From Paramyrothecium sp. XJ0827 (taxonomy: Eukaryota > Ascomycota > Sordariomycetes > Hypocreales > Stachybotryaceae): 64,000 nt of DNA. Below, piece after piece: positions 1,206 to 59,223 of this stretch. How positions within the stretch are numbered: position 1 is the stretch's first letter; every line of letters starts with the position of its first letter. The position numbers and the translations under genes were made by a program. A model generated the notes under the pieces. It ran no database searches, was not told the DNA's origin, and worked only from the letters and a program-made list of their open reading frames with translations. Location of the stretch: the NCBI GenBank assembly GCA_020881915.1, contig JAJFPB010000002.1:682001-746000 (forward strand), given 5' to 3'.

Positions 1206-2615
1206 CTAAGATCGTAGATATTCGCACACCGTTTCTGCCCACCGAACGCTACCTTTGTATATCCACATACCCGGTGCATTGCCTGACTTCAGCCCCTCGA
1301 TCGCGTCTGCGACTGCCGGGCCAGAGCCTTCCTCTTTAATCTCACGAATGGGGTAGACGTAGGTCTTGAACGAGAAGAGCAAGGACTGGGTTTCTGGGAG
1401 ACGTGAGAGCGTCTGCAGTTCCATCCTGGCAAATGTCTATGCATCGAGATTAATAAAAACCGGCCAAACAAAAAGTGATGGACAGTGTCAAGGTGCCTCA
1501 CTTGATCTAGATCTACATTGGTGCTTATGTTTTGTTGTGGTTTATTACCGACGGGGTGAGGATCGCAGTCGAAGAGATTGGGATGCGTCTGTATGGACCA
1601 CTGCAGTCACTGTCGTCAACAGGCGGTACCTCACGTAGACGTTGTAAAACTTACATTCATCCGTTTAACATTCTTACCGACTTCTACCTTGCCAAAGAAG
1701 CGCTCCATGCTGGGCCCAATCTTATCGAAAGAGGGTACGGGCTCATGGATTGCCTTGAGGCCCTTTCCAAGTTTGTGACTCGGGTCGAAGCCCATTGGGA
1801 AGCAACACATAAAGGCAACAGTCTTGTGGCCATCGGGGGTGTCTTTCATTAAAAAGATATCCTCTTCCACGGTGGTCCCTAGGATCCGAAGGCCAGCTAG
1901 CGGATCTTTCGGGGGCGTTGTGGAGAATGAGCGTCCTGTGACAAGGTTCTCGAACGTCTTGCCCTCGTCGGACAGTCTGAACATGCTGGGATAGCGACGT
2001 GGCAAGTAGTCTCTGAGTAAATAGACGTAAAGTTCCTCGACAGCATCTTCGCCTCCCGGGACGTAACCATGAACTGTCCGGTTGTGCTTCCTGATCAGGA
2101 GTCCTCTCAAGGTGACTCGATCGAGGTAGTCCTTGTCAATGGTGATTAAGTCGGCTGGATCATCAGCGCGCAGGCCTGAACTTGTGTGTGAGTCTATCTC
2201 AATTCTGAAGAAATCATACAAAGTAGCGGTTCGGAAGGTATACCCATTGTGATATGATATATCGGCTTAAAGGGTCGAAGCTTGCGTGGCTCTTGTCGCT
2301 TCCAGTCGAAATCCTTCAAAGGCTTAATCGTTGAGGGTGGCCATGACGTCGGCTGTGTTTTTTCAGGTTCCGAAGCATAAGAACCCGTCCGCTGCCGTCG
2401 CTGGCTCCATAGCGAAGACTGGGGATTCTTTAGCCTTTCGGACCGTGATAACCGGGATGTCGTTGGCACATATAACATACCTTGGCAACGAAGGTCCAGA
2501 CGGCGAAGCTGGCCGTGGCCACGAGCACGGTTAATGGCAGCCACGCCACAACGTCATCCATTACATGCGAGACGACCAACATGCTGTGTTGAAAGAGAAA
2601 TCGGAAAGCAGACAA
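1206..2615 (-). CDS. DUF3445 / heme-dependent oxidative N-demethylase-like membrane protein
   Basis: Five exons on the minus strand: 2615-2481, 2418-2244, 2175-1655, 1600-1502 and 1436-1206, with introns of 62, 68, 54 and 65 bp. All are GT-AG and keep frame, giving about 386 aa. The family match is strong: RPFKPIYHITMG, then DPADLITIDKDYLDR, then LPRRYPSMFRL, FFGKVEVGK, WSIQTHPNLF, the ELQTLSRLPETQ block and the final GNAPGMWIYKG motif. Bacterial relatives (HODM alpha subunit) are heme enzymes that N-demethylate small amines; the substrate of fungal members is not known to me. A hydrophobic segment near residues 24-42 suggests an N-terminal membrane anchor. Starts at 2582 or 2561 are also possible. 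It converges on the thioredoxin gene. Confidence 0.88.
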
Positions 2616-3916
2616 GAAACGACAAGCTGTTCAGACAAGGAGATTGAAGCAGAGATAAGGATCTGCTCCGATGGCCCAGGTCATGCTGCATCTCCTATCT
2701 ACCCCTCATTGGTTGACTCAATGGCTATTGTTCATCTCCTTGGCAGTGCGGAGCCGTGATCCACGTTACTGTCTCCATAGCTGCTTAATCAGCCCCCACG
2801 TACATCTAGATACTCTAATAATTGTGTATCTACTTAGTTAAATAAAGTAGTCTAAGGTATAAGAATAATATAGAGATACTTCTATTATAATGCAGAAGCC
2901 ACTGGATATGATGTAGCGCTAGATCTTATACCTTATCTTATTGGATCAGATCCTTGAAAATAACATGGTTTACGGCTCCGCACTGCCAAGGAGATGCAAC
3001 ACAAGCAGCACGATGTCTTAAAGGCGATGGAGAGCTACCATGTTGGAGATTTTGGGATATTGGCAACTCTTACATCCACTTCTTTAACACACCTCTCTCC
3101 ACCACTGGGAAATTTACAACTTTTTCCAAAACCCCACTACCACAAGAGGTGGTTCCGAGCATCTCCTCTCTGGATTCTTGAATAGAGACATCGACAAGCC
3201 AAGTGCGGTACTCTTCCATATCGAAGAGCACGCGACAGCTTGCAACTATAAGTTGAAGCTTTTGGAAAGGTTCAAGTTGGGAATCACTCGAATAGAGTTC
3301 TCGTCCATTCCAAGAACTTCGAAACAGCCGGAGGAGATAGTATTTCAAACTAACACTGAGAAGAGGTCGACCGCAGTTTCAGGAAGCGGTGGCGGTAGAG
3401 ACATGTTCTCCATGCCATATGTTGCCTCCTTAATAGTCCTTGTTAGATAAATCAGAAAGAGCATCGCGGAAGATATAGGGCAGTTAGTTCTCACGGCCAC
3501 CGAAGTGAGCCGCCCACCAATCGTGAGCACAAGGCTCAAGCTTGCTCTCAATACCACAATACACATTTCCACCCATACTTCTAACTTCCCTATCACTTAT
3601 AGGGTTAGATGCAAGCCTCAGCCAACAGCCGTGGCTGTGGCACAGACTGTTCGGCACAACGGTCAGCTATGGTGCCAGTCCGCCGCATCAAGAGGCACAT
3701 GATCGCGTAGCTTCGACCGAGTTTGACAGAGACCATATATCGATACCCCGCCTGGATCACGTGAAGGTAGACAGCTCTGCCCATCTAGTATAAATATGCA
3801 TAGAAGCCCTTGAAAAACCCCATCCATCCATCATGTAAGAATGGCTGTTAAACCAAACCTGCCTTCATTTTACTAACGCGACACCGAGTTTATCATACAA
3901 CTGGGTCCAGTTCAGT
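2616..3916. other. Intergenic region, AT-rich in part
   Basis: About 2810-2950 is strongly AT-rich. Overlapping minus-strand ORFs of 80-92 codons (3070-3348, 3345-3596) resemble no family I recognise and may be relics. The right end contains promoter-like sequence and a probable 5' leader intron of the next gene. Confidence 0.4.
3789..3796 (+). promoter_or_regulatory. TATA-box-like element (TATAAATA)
   Basis: TATAAATA lies 121 bp before the ATG at 3917. The spacing suits a core promoter if a short leader intron is removed: a GTAAGA donor at 3833 and a TACTAAC branch-like site near 3868-3874 lie between it and the ATG. Confidence 0.45.
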
Positions 3917-4860
3917 ATGGCTCGTACGAAGCAAACAGCGAAACGATACGGGAAGCCGATAGTCAGCTGGACGCGATTCCACTTACCGCAGTCGCAGGAG
4001 TGGCCTACATGGTCTGTAACGCATAGCGATGTGTATGCCGGCCCGCTCGCGAACGTGAAAGGCGTCCTGAGGGCATCATTGGGAAGGAGAGTTGAGAACA
4101 CTGAGAAAGCTGCCTACATCATTGGTGAGTCTCATTGGCACGGAACACACCAACCTATTTCTGGACTGAACCATCTTAAAAACTAGTCTGGCATACCTTA
4201 GATGACTTGAAGCATTTCCAGGCTTCTCCTGCGTGCGCTGAGTTTCTGCAGAATCTCCCCGAAGATGATAGCTCCCAAGCATCTGTCGAGTCGGGCGCGG
4301 CCGCGGACGAAGGCACACCGTCGTGGATGCCGGCGGCGTCGCGGTTCCTCACATTCGAACACATAAATGAGTTTCCAACAGCGGAACTAAAGGGCCGCGT
4401 CACATTTACCTCGTACTTAATACCGCGCAAGGATGACTCCATCAGGCGGGAATGGTACCATGACGTGCACAGCGCGCTTGGTCACTTCTTTCCACCTGGC
4501 TCCGAATACATCGAATTCAATCGCGAATTTAGGTGGAAATCTCTCATTATCTATTTCTGGCTGCTTACCGAGGACCAGTGGGTGCAAGAAAAATTTGGGA
4601 AACTGGAGCAGCCCCAGCAGGACGGGCAGGGCCGTACAATCATCTGCGAGTTTCGCCTCTGGCCTCGGGCAGTCGATGGCCCTCCGGAGCAGGAGGGGTC
4701 AGCCAGCAACCCGGAGGCGAGGGCATCGTGGGATCAAGCCATTTCCAAGGCGATGCCTCCAGTCACGTCTTGGGAACAAGAGAGGTGGGACATCCGCAAG
4801 GTGCCACATTTCGGCTCCTCCGAGGAGTCCGATTCGGAGGACCTTGAGCTCCAAGACTAG
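3917..4860 (+). CDS. Dimeric alpha/beta-barrel-like protein with histone H3-like N-terminus
   Basis: Two exons (3917-4124, 4187-4860; 62-bp GT-AG intron), 293 aa. Around the splice site the sequence reads RASLGRRVENTEKAAYII, then VWHTLDDLKHFQASPACAEFL. This resembles stress-response and antibiotic-monooxygenase alpha/beta barrels of fungi, although no catalytic residue can be assigned. A second half (about residues 120-270) has conserved-looking aromatic stretches, and the tail is acidic (SSEESDSEDLELQD). There is no signal peptide. The first eight residues, MARTKQTA, equal the start of histone H3, then diverge (KRYGK). The ATG is the first in this frame after an in-frame TAA at about 3835, and acceptor-like AGs lie just upstream, so translation should start here if no further coding exon exists. 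The enzymatic role is unknown. Confidence 0.75.
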
Positions 4861-5091: not shown

Positions 5092-6365
5092 TCAGGGCGT
5101 GACGGCGCCGAAAATTCTTGGATTTGTACCCTGAAATTCGAAATCCCAGTTTGACGGGATCGACCAGGGATTGTTGCCATCGGGCTCTCCATACAGGTGA
5201 TTCATATGGGCGATGAAGAAGACGAAATTTTCGGGGTTTCTGCGTTGGTCCGTGGCCTTGAAGTTTATGCATTTGCCGAGGTCAACTGCCAGTCCCGAGT
5301 CAATACGTGGTTCGCATCTGCATTTAGAGGGTATAGGACATGAGAACTGGGTACTTGCCTTCCTCCTTTGGTTTGCTTTTCTCTTGTAAGAAATGACCTC
5401 CGCGTAGAAGGTGAAAAATCTCATGGAGGAACGTGGCGCTCCTTGGGATCGCCAGCGCAAGGTTTGTGCCGGCTCCGAGCAGATTGCTCGCGTCTCTGTA
5501 ACTAACTGGCTTCGGGCTCGTGTCAATGGCATAAGGACATAGGATGACACTTCCAATGTCAACGCCAGGTTTAGCCTCCCCTTCAGGGCCTCGGGTGAGT
5601 GGTGTAATGTAAGCGGTAAGGCCGAGGTTGTCCCCAGTGCAGAAGTCGGCACCAGAGTCTGAGAAATAGTAGCCGTTCAGACTTGTGCGATCGCCAGCCC
5701 ACCATGGCTTAATGCCTGCGGTGCTAAGCCGCTTTGCGTATTCGGGCACGCTGCTGATGGGGATGAGGTCACCATCATCATCGATGATGTTTTGACCCTC
5801 AAAAGTCACGGCAATGTCGCCTGAATCTTGCTCAACAAGGAAAGTGCTGTCACAGAACAACCAGTATGAGCTCTGAGGATATATGATTTCTCCATTCTTT
5901 GTTGCCCGGGTGAAAAAGTCTTTGACATATTGGATTTCCTCTGGTCATGGGGTCAGTCGGGTCGGCACTCCTGGGTTGAGGAGATGGGGGCTCATGAATA
6001 AGAGAAGATGATGTTGCGACAACCACCTTTAGAGTAGGGGAGTTTCGCGACGGTGAGTACTTACGTCTGACCGCTACGACAGAGGCAGACTTGGTCGTGC
6101 TGCCAACCTTGACTCCGAAGAAGACTGACATAGCCGCCTGTACCCTATCCTCAGTTTCGTAGTTATCGATGGCGATCAGGGCCTCCTCGATACTGAACTC
6201 GATCTCCTGGCGCCAAGCGTTCAAAAGGGCCAACCGATTATTGCAGCCACCCTGGTTAGTGCCAGGGTGAACAGTAAAGATCTCTTCAATCGTCGCCGCA
6301 ACAGCGGGGGACGGGAGGGCGATGAGGCATATCGCCAGGCCAAGAAGAAAAGAAATTCTCGCCAT
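5092..6365 (-). CDS. Secreted zincin-like protein (HEXXH)
   Basis: Minus-strand gene in three exons: 6365-6065, 5940-5359 and 5285-5092, about 358 aa. Residues 1-23 form a signal peptide (MARISFLLGLAICLIALPSP, then AVAA). HEIFH at about 273-277 is a zinc-protease HEXXH motif. It is followed by DLGKCINF and NPENFVFFIAHMNHLYG, the pattern of fungal secreted zincins in which an Asn-rich aromatic helix follows the metal site. The first intron is a clear GT-AG. The second is best explained as a GC-AG intron (AAG/GCAAGT donor, 73 bp); a 37-bp GT-AG alternative would also keep frame but is unusually short. The third metal ligand is not evident, so activity is inferred only. The gene ends about 230 bp from the convergent barrel gene. 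Confidence 0.72.
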
Positions 6366-7482: not shown

Positions 7483-8043
7483 CTACACACCCGAAGCCAC
7501 AATCTTGACCAGAATGCCATCCGTCACATAGCCCTTGGGGTACGTCGACCCTGCATAGGTGGGGTGAGCCTTGTTGACCAGCACCCCGAGGGAGCCGCCG
7601 TCACTGCCGCAGCCGAGCAGGGAGGCAGCCTGCGCGGCCTCGTCGGCGTTGGCTCCGCCGTCGATGGTGGTGGCAATGTCGGCAAACATCACGCTCGTGT
7701 TGACCGTGGTGTTGATGTGCTTTCCAAAGGCCTGGGCAGTCCCGTAGGCGTAGAGCAGCCACTCGTCGCAGTCGGGCGTGTCGGCCGCGGCCATGCTGAA
7801 CAGGCGGCCGGTCCGGATCTGGGCGCCGTAGGCGCGGAGATAGTCCGCGATGAATTGGACGTCCGCGAGGTCAACATCCTGGGGGATGTTGTCGGGCGCC
7901 GTGTAGCAGAGGCGGGCGGGCGTCTCTGTCTCGTAGCAGATGCGGGAGGCTTGGAGCTCGGCCGAGCCAGGGGCAGGGCCAGTGGCTGCCATGGTGCTGC
8001 CGAAGAGGGCCAGCGGCACGATGGTAGCGAGCTTGGAGAACAT
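7483..8043 (-). CDS. Small secreted protein, four cysteines
   Basis: Single exon, 186 aa. The first 20 residues (MFSKLATIVPLALFGSTMAA) form a signal peptide. The mature part has four cysteines in the contexts RICYE, RLCYT, PDCDEW and LLGCGSD, enough for two disulfides, and NTT/NTS sites for N-glycosylation. I do not recognise a catalytic motif. Size, secretion and even cysteine number fit the class of fungal secreted proteins that includes candidate effectors, but nothing here proves a host role. It has no detectable introns, and codon use is GC-rich like other genes in the window. Confidence 0.75.
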   Translation of the reverse strand: MFSKLATIVPLALFGSTMAATGPAPGSAELQASRICYETETPARLCYTAPDNIPQDVDLADVQFIADYLRAYGAQIRTGRLFSMAAADTPDCDEWLLYAYGTAQAFGKHINTTVNTSVMFADIATTIDGGANADEAAQAASLLGCGSDGGSLGVLVNKAHPTYAGSTYPKGYVTDGILVKIVASGV

Positions 8044-35025: not shown

Positions 35026-38000
35026 TTACCCCCAATGCACCTCCCGCCAACCCTTCACGTTCATGCTCCAGCTGGCCACCAGCTCCGCCACCGCCGTGCT
35101 CCCCACAAATTTCCCAACGTCCGCCTCTTCCTCAAACACCCACTGCTTGAACCTCTGCATAAAATCCTTCTTCGACACGACCTCGTCGTACAGCCTCGAC
35201 GTCACCGCCTTTCCTTCCTTCAGAACCGCCTCCGCAGCCGACTGGAGGCCCTTCATCTGGGCAACCGCCTCCTTGGGAATGCTGGTCTTGCCTGACCGAT
35301 CGCGCTCCCGCTCGCGGTCGTTCATGGTGAGGATCCACTTTGCAGCAATATGTGCTGCGGTAGCGGCGTCTCGAAGCATGGTGATATTGTGCAATGAGGA
35401 GAGGACCCCAACAATAGAAGAGACCTCACTGTCCTTGGACGAAGGCAGGCTAAGACGGATGTTCTCCAGGGCGATCTTCACCGCATCTGTCAATCCGACG
35501 AAATCCTGTAGGTGATCGGCGGAGACGATCAAACTGGTGCCAAGTGGCAGTAAACCACTGAGCAGACCGATAATCTCAAAGTAGGACACTTCCAGCGCGG
35601 TGCAAGAAGATTGAGCTCCTGGAAGGAACTTATGCAGCGAGTTGCAAAGCTGACCCATCGTTTCTAGAACAAACACTTGATCCGAGTTGGAGTTGGCCTT
35701 GTAGGATGCGGGGGGCTTGTACGTCAGGACATCGTGGAACGCCTCGGACAGGAGAGACAGGTGAGCTCGACGGTTCTGTCATGCGTTAGCAGTGTTTCCA
35801 GTCAACCTTGACACCGCCCTACTCACTGATATAGGAGGCCCCACACGGAGACGAGCATAGGCGGGTGTTGAACTGCTCGAATCCCACGAAGGAAATGAGC
35901 CGTAGTCGAGAGCCTCGGTAAGTTCCAGGTCATCACTCACGTCCGCTATTGAAGTTAGCCACTTGTAGCGAGATGCTCTCTGGCGATTGGTAACCTACTA
36001 TATCGTGGATCTTGGAGGAATTCTCCATATGGCGTTCCGAAAAGCCTCTCTGTCCGGGACTCCTCGACCAAACTCATTGCGCGTGTACAGCTAGACCGGA
36101 GATTCTCGATGTACTTGGGAACGCTTAGGACACTTGTGTAGCTACCCGTCTGGAACGCATCAATGAGTCTCCGCGGCATCCGCAGCTTCAAAGACGTGGT
36201 GTAGTGGGACGCGAGCATGTCAATGAGTTCCCAGCCCCAGTCGTCAGCCGATGAGATGATCGCCGGCGCAATGGTGGAGAGTCTGTCAAAAAAGAGTGGT
36301 GCCAGTGAATCCATGATCGTGCGCTTGACACCCAGGACATCCCAAACTTCCCGTGTCCGGGATCCAGAGCCAACAAGAATGTGCAGCTGAACAAGGAGCA
36401 GAGAGAGCAGGCTATGCTTTGGAGACGCCGAGAGTTGCTTTTCCAATACGAGCAACGCACGCAGGAGATGGCGGGTCGATGTGGGGTTTGGCGCCGTATA
36501 CAGCGGCTTACCGTCCTGCGTGGCGAGACGGATACTGCAGTAGGCGATGAGAATCGCAATCTCAGGCAACACTTCGCTTGAGAAGGCATGGTGTTCCGAA
36601 GCCGATGGCGAGAGAGAATTGTGCAGTTCGAGCGCCGCCCTGGAGATTGTGCTGAGGCATTGGGTACAGGAGGGTGCTGAGGAAACCGCATCACAGACCG
36701 CACACTTGTGACCAGGCTTCTCCGGTGGTGCAGGAGTGTAGATGGAGAGGCACGAAGAGACAAAGTACTGCAGCTTGAGGGCAAGCACCTTGATCCTTGC
36801 TACCTCGACTGGGATCTCGGTCTCGGCGGTCAATGAGGGCACAAACTCGTGAGCGACGTACTTCATCGCTAATGGCTCGAGCTTGTCTACGAAGCCCTTG
36901 ATATCATCGAAGCATGCGAGAGTATTCTTGTACTGCCGAATGTAGGTCTGCAGTTCTCGAAGGCGAGGGGATGCCGCTTCACCGTCCTTTAGGTCCACGT
37001 CGTCGTTGACGGTAAGGCTGAAAGCAATAGATACTTGAGCAAGCTGGAGGTTCCGCGTGTAGATTGGTCGGATATGGGTGGATTTCCGCAACGTGTCGAG
37101 GAGTTCTTGCACTTCCTTTTGTGCTCTGGTGAAGTTAGCATGCGGACGTGCGCAGATTTGCTGGGATGAGTAACGTACTCCGTATCCTGGTTGGTGGTCT
37201 GCTGGGCTGCCTCGATGAATTGCTGCCAAACAGCCCAGTCACATGCCAGAAGATGAGGCTGGCCGTTCTCGTCCGCTTCGGATAGGCATTCCTTGCACAA
37301 AGAGTACAAAGCGTCCCAGTTGCCGTTATTCTTGTGTCTCGTCGCAACACGCATGAAGAGCTCCTTGCGCCCACGGCGGAATTGCGTCTGAGGAGAGAAG
37401 ACGGCGCTGGACAGCAGCTTCTGGAAGTCGCTGTCAGAGCCGTGACTTTCGACAATCTCATAGAGCAGCAGGATCTCCTCTTCTGTTTGGATGGTTCGAG
37501 GTGAGAGCTTGGCGGCATCCTTGTTGTCGCCGGCTTGCTCCTAGACCTGGCGTCAGCAACGGGTAGCTGGCATCTGCGATGAGACTTCACTGTACCTGCT
37601 CCGCGAGCTGCGCAGCCCGCTCAATTTGTCTTTGAGCTAGAGTGCCATAGAGCTTCTTCTTGTCGGCGGGTGCCTGAGAACTCGTCTAGATAGGCGTCAG
37701 AGATCATTCAAGCATGTGGCAGGGGATCCCCTAGCTTACTGCAAGGAGGTGAGTGATGGCAATGTTCCAAAAGAGCAACATTCGCTCCTGCGGGAAGGAC
37801 CGGTCAAGCACGGCAGCAATCTTTAGAGGTCAGTAAGATGGCCAGCCGAGTTGAGCTTGGGTTGGTGCTGCGGCTCACCTGCTGGGCGTTGACGAGATCC
37901 CAATGCAGCAGACATGACTCTAGTGACTGGACGGCAGCATTGCGATCCTTGGGGGAGGCCTTGACAGCGCGGACCCTCAGCGTTCCGAGAGACTCGGTGT

Positions 38001-57482: not shown

Positions 57483-59223
57483 ATGACAACCCCGACAAGA
57501 AGGCCAGACGACCTCATTAAAATCACTTGTTTTGAGCCATTCATATTTCCAATGGATTCCTACAAGCCCATCTGCTTCACGAAGATTCTTGGAGTTAATG
57601 ATGAGGAGGCCATCCCTCCTAAGGGGAGTGTCTCCAAGGCACTCGAGGAAAACCCAAGAAATGGGTCTCTCGCCATTCCTCCGGCGCCGACAGCGCCTGG
57701 AGGCCCCTTGGGTCTCGCTATGATGACTAGGAAGTTCTGGAGGCCTGGTCGCGAACTCAAGATTGGCTTCCAAGGAGGAACACAATGGCAGAAGGTTAGC
57801 TGGACCTAGACTACACATAGGGTCATCGATTCACTAATAAATACTCTAGGATAAAGTCAAGCAGTATGCTCCAGAGTGGTCCAAGTACGCCAACATCGAG
57901 ATGACTTTTGTCGACTCAGGAGACACGGACATCCTCATCGACTTCAATCCTGGCTTGGGATCCTGGTCATACCTAGGAACAGACTGTAGTTGGTACAGCT
58001 CTCAGAACCGGCCCTCAATGAACCTGGGCTGGATCAATGACAACAAGTCGGAAGGCGACATCTGCCAGGTCATCCTTCATGAGTTTGGGCACGCACTCGG
58101 GGCCGTCCATGAGCATGAGAGTCCTTATGCTCAGATCCCATGGAATAAGGAAAAGGTCTACCAGGACCTTGGAGGCCCGCCGAACAACTGGAGCAAAGCC
58201 CAGGTTGACCAAAACATGTTCACGCTCTACACACTCGAAGACACTCCGGCAACATGGTTCGATCCGGATAGCATTATGCTATACTACTTCCCAGCCAGCT
58301 GGACAACGAATGGCAAGGGCACGAATTACAATACCAAGCTATCCAACCTTGACAAGGCGTATTCCAAGTTTTGCTATCCGGCTGACGCCTATGATGCCGG
58401 ACAGTACAACACCATAGAGGTCCGTCCTTGGGACAAGCCGCAGCTGGAAAACGACAAAATCATATACTACTACAAGAAATACGATGATGTGCCGCAGATC
58501 CCAATTGGAATCACATCCCTTGACATTAACCAAAAAGGCGGTATCCGTATCAGAGCTTTCGCTAGCGAGGCAACAACGGAGAAATTTAAAGCATCTCTGC
58601 AGAGCTGGTCGGACACCACGCTCTATTCGGCCTCCATGACCTGGTTGGAGAAAAGCTCGAGCTTCAGCTACATCCAGACTGGCGTCTACAACACAACGGA
58701 AACACGTCCCTGGGACAAGCCGCAGCTCACGCAGTCGAAGCGTATAAACTTCGCCACGCCCTTCAACGAGCCGCCCAAGGTCATCACCTGGCTGCAGTCC
58801 CTGGACATGAACGAATCCAAGGGCTGGCGTATCAGGGTGTACCCCACCGACGTCGACACCCACGGCTTCACCATCCACGCTGACTCGTGGGCCGACTCAA
58901 TCCTCTACAGCGCTGGCGTCACCTGGCTGGCCTACCCTGCCGACCAGCCCGGCGTCACCAGTGGCAAATTCAGCACCACGGATGTACGCCCCTGGGACAA
59001 GCCGCAGGCCGAGAATTCAGGGACATTCAACTTCCCGACGGCATTCGCAAAGACACCCAAGGTCATTATGGCCATCGATTCGCTCGACTACAACGAGAAC
59101 AAGGGTCTGCGCCTGCGTCTGAGTACGTCCTCGGTCACTAATACAGGCATCACCTGGCATCTGCAGAGCTGGTGGGACTCCATCATGTATAGCTCTGGGG
59201 CCTCGTTCTTCGCTTGGACTTGA
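57483..59223 (+). CDS. Metzincin metalloprotease with three H-type lectin repeats
   Basis: Two exons (57483-57794, 57850-59223; 55-bp intron), 561 aa. The catalytic domain has HEFGHALGAVH (ligands His181, His185, His191; base Glu182) followed by EHESP, as in astacin-like and related metzincins, with a Met-turn at DSIMLYYF. Three similar modules of about 90 aa follow. Each opens with RPWDKPQ, carries a Gly/Ile strand (ITSLDINQKGGIRIRAF, WLQSLDMNESKGWRIRVY, MAIDSLDYNENKGLRLRL) and closes with SWxDxxxYSA/SSGxxW, the H-type lectin pattern known from GalNAc-binding discoidin-I and snail agglutinins. No signal peptide is visible at MTTPTRRPDDLIK. The lectins probably direct the protease to glycans; unconventional secretion or cytosolic defence is inference. 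Confidence 0.86.

Follow-up and report, generated by a model that had tools for sequence, protein, structure and literature searches.

SNAG tails, which are carried by animal transcription repressors, share little sequence with histone H3. The SNAG domain of GFI1/SNAI1 is described to bind LSD1 as an H3-tail mimic, with a short N-terminal tail standing in for the H3 tail and recruiting an H3K4 enzyme (PMC5896174). The 1VRT3 residues of PAF15 fill the site of H3 1ART3 in the PHD finger of UHRF1 with a similar micromolar affinity, as that source states (PMC11187062), where the VRT motif of PAF15 and DPPA3 comprises three residues in animal proteins and the motif of DPPA3 is internal. The N-terminal AKER tail of Shugoshin 1, which pairs with the BIR domain of Survivin, is likewise presented as an N-terminal H3 mimic, in this case of four residues and for a reader of H3 phosphorylated at T3 (PMC9253516). 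N-terminal H3 mimics are already known, and in the cases consulted the resemblance to H3 spans three or four residues or lies in shape; in the portions of the three sources available, none of the SNAG, PAF15 and Shugoshin cases is fungal, and none is said to copy at least seven residues (PMC5896174, PMC11187062, PMC9253516). Among the titles and abstract openings listed, from a search lying mostly outside subscription journals, none concerned a fungal protein other than a histone with an ARTKQT tail.

The locus described below belongs to a family that differs from the SNAG repressors in carrying 7–10 residues identical to H3 on an enzyme-like barrel in fungi, and from Shugoshin 1 in that T3 is poorly conserved. 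The family, which has received little study, consists of non-histone proteins which keep up to 7–10 H3-identical residues in organisms fit for knockouts and peptide pulldowns.

Gene model and predicted fold

The barrel gene was examined in the window, meaning the whole 64,000-nucleotide stretch of Paramyrothecium sp. XJ0827 DNA that was analysed, and comprises two exons encoding a product of 293 aa, with the ATG at 3917 opening the frame. The coordinates 3917..4124 proposed for the H3-like protein by the first-pass annotation are exactly those of exon 1. The features of the locus and of its two neighbours are as follows:

3789..3796, + strand: TATA-like box TATAAATA, identified by eye, with the start ATG 128 bases downstream of 3789
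3835..3888, + strand: possible 5'-UTR intron, by eye, with GTAAGA at 3835, TACTAAC at 3871 and AG at 3888 or 3915
3917..4124, + strand: exon 1 of the barrel gene, with the ATG, the H3-like leader and the first part of barrel 1
3917..3967, + strand: leader, 17 codons before the start of the WTRF domain, an unordered tail in the model and coil by DSSP to residue 14
3920..3940, + strand: ARTKQTA codons, equal to histone H3 residues 1–7
4125..4186, + strand: intron, GTGAGT...AG
4187..4860, + strand: exon 2, the remainder of the tandem ABM-type barrel protein, with an acidic C-terminus and the stop
5092..6365, - strand: HExxH (HEIFH) metallopeptidase-like protein, secreted-looking by eye, with three modelled exons (6365-6065, 5940-5359, 5285-5092), the second intron being GC-AG
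7483..8043, - strand: secreted-looking 186-aa protein, weakly KP4/Ecp2-like, with secretion judged by eye from the N-terminus

Removal of the putative 5'-UTR intron would keep the ATG at 3917 and add no residues to the protein. Two short upstream frames were also observed in window 3833-3876 (+), namely an ATG-TAA at 3833 and a frame of 11 codons plus stop at 3841, and both could be removed by the possible intron from 3835.

The model of the barrel protein exhibits a tandem ABM-type (dimeric alpha+beta) barrel with an unordered N-terminal tail. Residues 1–10 have a mean pLDDT of 51 in this model, with no secondary structure to residue 14 and the first strand from residue 15, so the tail is exposed or unordered by prediction. 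The model matches solved tandem ABM-type barrels, bearing out on predicted structure the alpha/beta-barrel identity given to the protein at first; anthrone oxidase-like 5f9p and PenE 9kdp share the tandem ABM-type barrel at an identity of 11%, and their alignments start at model residue 11, so that they hold no aligned counterpart of the H3-like tail. By sequence, the ABM family (PF03992) scored 18.3 bits for the window protein against a gathering threshold of 23.1, which is below the cut-off, and was matched at E 0.01 or better in 12 of 39 members, and no hit better than E 0.028 came from running the family profile against the sequences of solved structures. The lack of a histone fold after the tail, claimed at first from the reading frame, was borne out, since Pfam reported no histone family in the barrel protein (the weak ABM match being the only one) and the model is a barrel.

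Conservation of the leader among relatives

A first search with the single sequence yielded 63 proteins and a profile search yielded 120 family proteins, these 63 included; all the members with species names among the 120 are fungal, and the named species are, we take it, ascomycetes. The profile behind the 120-protein search was an alignment (A1) of the window protein with 38 of the 63 first matches beginning with MAR, the other 25 being left out; its invariant MAR columns arise by this choice of rows, and it may favour MAR-like relatives. In the same alignment, 37 of the 38 relatives align across the intron junction without a gap, with P0028 gapped there. Together with the window gene and its paralogue in the same genome, the 120 proteins make 122, from which 33 without a domain start near the N-terminus (fragments or models starting inside the domain) were left out; from the remaining 89 rows, P0023, P0057, P0092 and P0100, which have no full leader, were dropped for the 85-row counts, and P0004 was trimmed to its inner Met for the leader counts. 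Extra length was observed in the gene models of P0068 (with short-chain dehydrogenase-type Pfam domains), P0021 and P0004, as fusions or as real sequence. In addition, a short stretch at C13:3805121-3805210 (-) of the same genome resembles only the C-terminal WERWDIR end of the barrel family (E 0.03) and is possibly a gene remnant.

The leaders of the 89 rows start with MA in 82, MAR in 75, M-ARTK in 47, M-ARTKQTA in 22 and M-ARTKQTAR in 13, and 85 of them are 16–21 residues long, Met included. The first-pass annotation had set against its own reading the case of orthologues aligning from PIVSWTRF onward without any H3-like leader; this outcome was not met with family-wide, although some leaders are not H3-like and 4 of the 89 rows have no full leader. 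Since the window gene matches H3 only through A7, positions 8–10 lie outside the selection of the other 21 ARTKQTA rows, which nevertheless carry the match further, with R in 13 and K in 7 at position 8, R in 12 and K in 2 at position 9, and S in 8 at position 10; P0016 matches H3 through K9 and P0029 through S10. The absence of H3 K9, noted at first for the window protein, extends to the family, where R is usual at position 9 (R in 34 and K in 8 of 85 rows), and the modal family leader is H3 1–10 with K9R. The ARTKQTA rows are down to 34% identical in the domain and occur in both main halves of the domain tree. Of the 85 rows, 15 lack K4, with S4 in its place in a Colletotrichum group; the paralogue in the same genome reads ARTRKTAR, with R for K4; the losses at the other positions, out of 85, are 31 for T3, 42 for Q5, 41 for T6, 36 for A7 and 43 for R8. 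In some relatives the leader is basic but otherwise quite unlike this one, AIVKKTQQQLRQERKR being an example.

Differential rates of change were observed along the leader when the 85 rows were placed on a tree built by a quick method from the domain alone, which is unrooted and has 30–31 of its 86 inner branches open or starred. The changes numbered 3 for A1, 9 for R2, 26 for T3, 12 for K4, 29 for Q5, 33 for T6, 27 for A7 and 30 for R8, followed by 40, 43, 47, 35, 40 and 30 at leader positions 9–14, and the median of the 197 domain columns was 16 changes. Taken singly, A1, R2 and K4 are the only leader positions to change less often than the median domain column, and T3 and Q5–R8 exceed it; the constancy of A1 may come partly from the start-codon context. 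As a block, 22 of 85 rows share ARTKQTA, the modal 7-mer of leader 1–7. This level is reached by 5.9% of the domain seven-column blocks (median 2), so the heptapeptide beats 94% of blocks, whereas the modal seven of leader 8–14 is held by 0 of 85 rows. In sets thinned by identity, from which the window rows were excluded together with three gene models of unusual form, the exact heptapeptide was retained in 13/51 (<70%), 7/29 (<60%) and 4/18 (<55%), and the modal leader opens with the identical 10 residues in all three. The block counts and the thinned sets together indicate that the tail, unordered by prediction, is conserved as a unit more strongly than most of the folded domain, and, with the counts for leader 8–14, that the constraint weakens where the H3 match ends, the consensus being H3 1–10 with K9R. 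ARTKQTA is in this respect kept in the relatives more than the adjacent leader sequence. Exact ARTKQTA underwent 19 changes on the domain tree for 22 rows, indicating that it was often gained or lost.

These counts support the H3-tail mimic on a non-histone barrel protein that the first-pass annotation had suggested, and the reading that we consider slightly more probable than not is a tandem ABM-type barrel protein whose H3-tail copy is functional and docks on H3K4 readers or enzymes. The initiator Met would be removed, given the small second residue, leaving a free A1 N-terminus, and the free tail A1-R2-T3-K4-Q5-T6-A7 would project from the barrel. H3K4-type readers would then bind it, PHD fingers first and the arginine pocket of Swd3/WDR5 second; Set1/COMPASS would perhaps methylate it; and the tail would dock the barrel on chromatin complexes or compete with H3 for them. 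From sequence, docking on H3K4 readers seems the most likely of these steps and methylation of the tail is possible, and we infer Met removal, the free amine, reader binding or methylation, and action in the nucleus on the same footing. In PHD-H3 complexes the tail pairs as a third strand, with the A1 amine and the R2 side chain anchored and K4 discriminated (PMC10124903, PMC3214078). The conservation ranking of A1, R2 and K4 fits PHD reading and is what such a reader would impose. Candidate partners in the same genome include at least 16 PHD places and 4 SWIRM places over the cut-off, and the COMPASS-type enzyme MLL4 methylates the peptide ARTKQTARK in vitro (PMC12551112). Reading of the Survivin type, through phosphorylated T3, is less likely because T3 is poorly kept. 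With R usually at the K9 position of H3, the family shows the K4 side of the tail and lacks the K9 mark; K9R would spare the barrel protein from H3K9 writers, and with K9 missing, K4 reading and K9 reading are separated here by nature. Should the tail prove to be read or methylated, fungi would have a client of H3K4 readers and COMPASS that is not a histone, part of the H3K4 methylation signal obtained with antibodies could come from a protein other than histones, and chromatin would be linked to a barrel of metabolic type.

The K4 losses in 15 of 85 rows, the R4 of the paralogue, the 19 changes of exact ARTKQTA on the tree, the differing basic leaders, the possible share of start-codon context in the constancy of A1 and the internal motif in the gene model of P0004 speak against a strict mimic reading. 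By the strongest of the rival explanations, a basic leader was kept for another purpose (organelle targeting, a barrel lid, or nucleic acid or lipid binding) and its identity to H3 is coincidental at the level of the family. The leader is basic indeed: acid residues occur among the nine positions that follow Met in just 12 of 85 rows. Subfamilies also exist with a leader that is basic without being H3-like, and A1 and R2 are retained in most rows without K4. The probability of ARTKQTAR arising by chance from the leaders' own composition is, however, about 1.3e-8; order is kept and not charge alone, as the modal 7-mer counts for leader 1–7 and 8–14 demonstrate, and the basic leader is short, at 16–21 residues in 85 of 89 rows. 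We regard this explanation as rather unlikely, though worth serious weight.

The three-gene cassette

The gene with the H3-like tail and, on the opposite strand downstream of it, those for the HExxH protein and the KP4/Ecp2-like protein form a cassette that is present twice in the genome. Each of the two neighbours gave two genome matches at E 0.01 or better, both beside a family member, and their second copies adjoin the second family member at C8:4.20 Mb (C8:4199500-4209000) in the same order. Beyond this genome, 96 family proteins lie on contigs of at least 10 kb, and for 18 of these the contig equals in size that of a secreted-protein relative; the contig sizes were copied by hand, the source gives one contig per cluster, and the secreted-family row P0147 (no contig) was left out. 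Locus tags two apart were observed in five species, namely Phlyctema, Pestalotiopsis, two Colletotrichum and one Trichoderma. The other 78 of the 96 exhibit no such link among the matches listed, and the members of the two families are on different contigs, in the matches listed, in Colletotrichum liriopes, Xylaria flabelliformis, X. telfairii, Nemania sp. NC0429 and Phialemonium atrogriseum.

Pfam gave no match for either window neighbour or for five secreted-protein relatives, some relatives of the secreted protein being labelled Ecp2 effector protein domain-containing by the source, and a search of PDB sequences returned nothing for the metallopeptidase-like protein at E 1. The predicted model of the 186-aa secreted-looking protein has a pLDDT of 82.4, and Zt-KP4 (8acx) fills ranks 1–7 of its structural matches, which are weak, with a best E of 0.014 and none under 0.001.

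The linkage of the three genes suggests a joint role. One explanation in these terms, compatible with the mimic reading, makes the barrel protein the intracellular member of a secreted antagonism cassette, for instance as a self-protection or control factor, with the H3 tail tying the cassette to chromatin state. The paired genome matches, the 18 linked proteins with the five species of neighbouring locus tags, and the weak structural match between the secreted protein and Zt-KP4 speak for it; the 78 family proteins without such a link in the listed matches, the five named species with different contigs, the weakness of the KP4 match and the lack of a Pfam match for both neighbours speak against it, and we deem it unlikely. 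Both cassette neighbours look secreted by eye, which does not point to a chromatin role. Returning to the mimic reading in its widest form, a new class of fungal H3-tail mimics, with a K9R tail, an oxygenase-like barrel and a three-gene cassette, might use the tail to draw in H3K4 readers or COMPASS, or to titrate them, and in this way link chromatin state to the barrel or to the cassette. This is offered tentatively, as an idea that could well be wrong.

Relation to the true H3 gene and the start of the frame

An ATG followed by ARTKQTA is expected 0.0023–0.0024 times in the 51.8-Mb genome on both strands, and it was found at 2 places, one in the barrel gene and the other, C12:2731798, in the true H3 gene; leaving position 5 of the pattern free returned the same two places. 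The N-terminus after Met is identical to the ARTKQTA of this H3 gene, so the identity to H3 through residue 7 read from the window stands, and two places against an expectation of 0.0024 agree with the earlier view that a chance match is very unlikely. A chance match was ruled out by this expectation together with the composition-based probability above.

Gene capture, in which recombination gave an ancestor the opening codons of H3 and the tail then persisted with or without a chromatin role, would account for the identity to H3 from residue 1 and for the match of P0029 through S10. Against it, none of the 89 rows has an uninterrupted H3 match past residue 10, the barrel gene and the H3 gene of the same genome have silent differences at 5 of the 7 ARTKQTA codons, and the first intron of that H3 gene is about 25 codons in and not at the end of the shared stretch; capture is accordingly considered quite improbable. 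The silent codon differences also indicate that the motif of the barrel gene is no recent copy of H3, an origin that was ruled out, and the tail likely arose by convergence and not by recent copying of H3.

The weakest explanation, and one hardly credible, is that the start codon is wrong or that the match arose by chance in the window alone. In its favour, P0004 is annotated with 115 residues ahead of MARTKQTA, making the motif internal in that gene model. Against it, no earlier ATG stands in frame between the in-frame TAA at 3836-3838 and the ATG at 3917, which carries A at -3 and G at +4 and is downstream of the TATA-like box; the chance expectation is as low as given above, and 85 of 89 rows start 16–21 residues ahead of the domain.

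Other genes were also observed in the window. A haem-dependent oxidative N-demethylase alpha-like protein (PF11927, E 2.2e-53) is encoded upstream of the H3-tail gene at 1631-2266 (-), a non-catalytic subunit of N-terminal acetyltransferase B (PF09797) at 35955-37238 (-), and a protein with H-type lectin repeats joined to a weak metzincin-like peptidase match at 57850-59223 (+).
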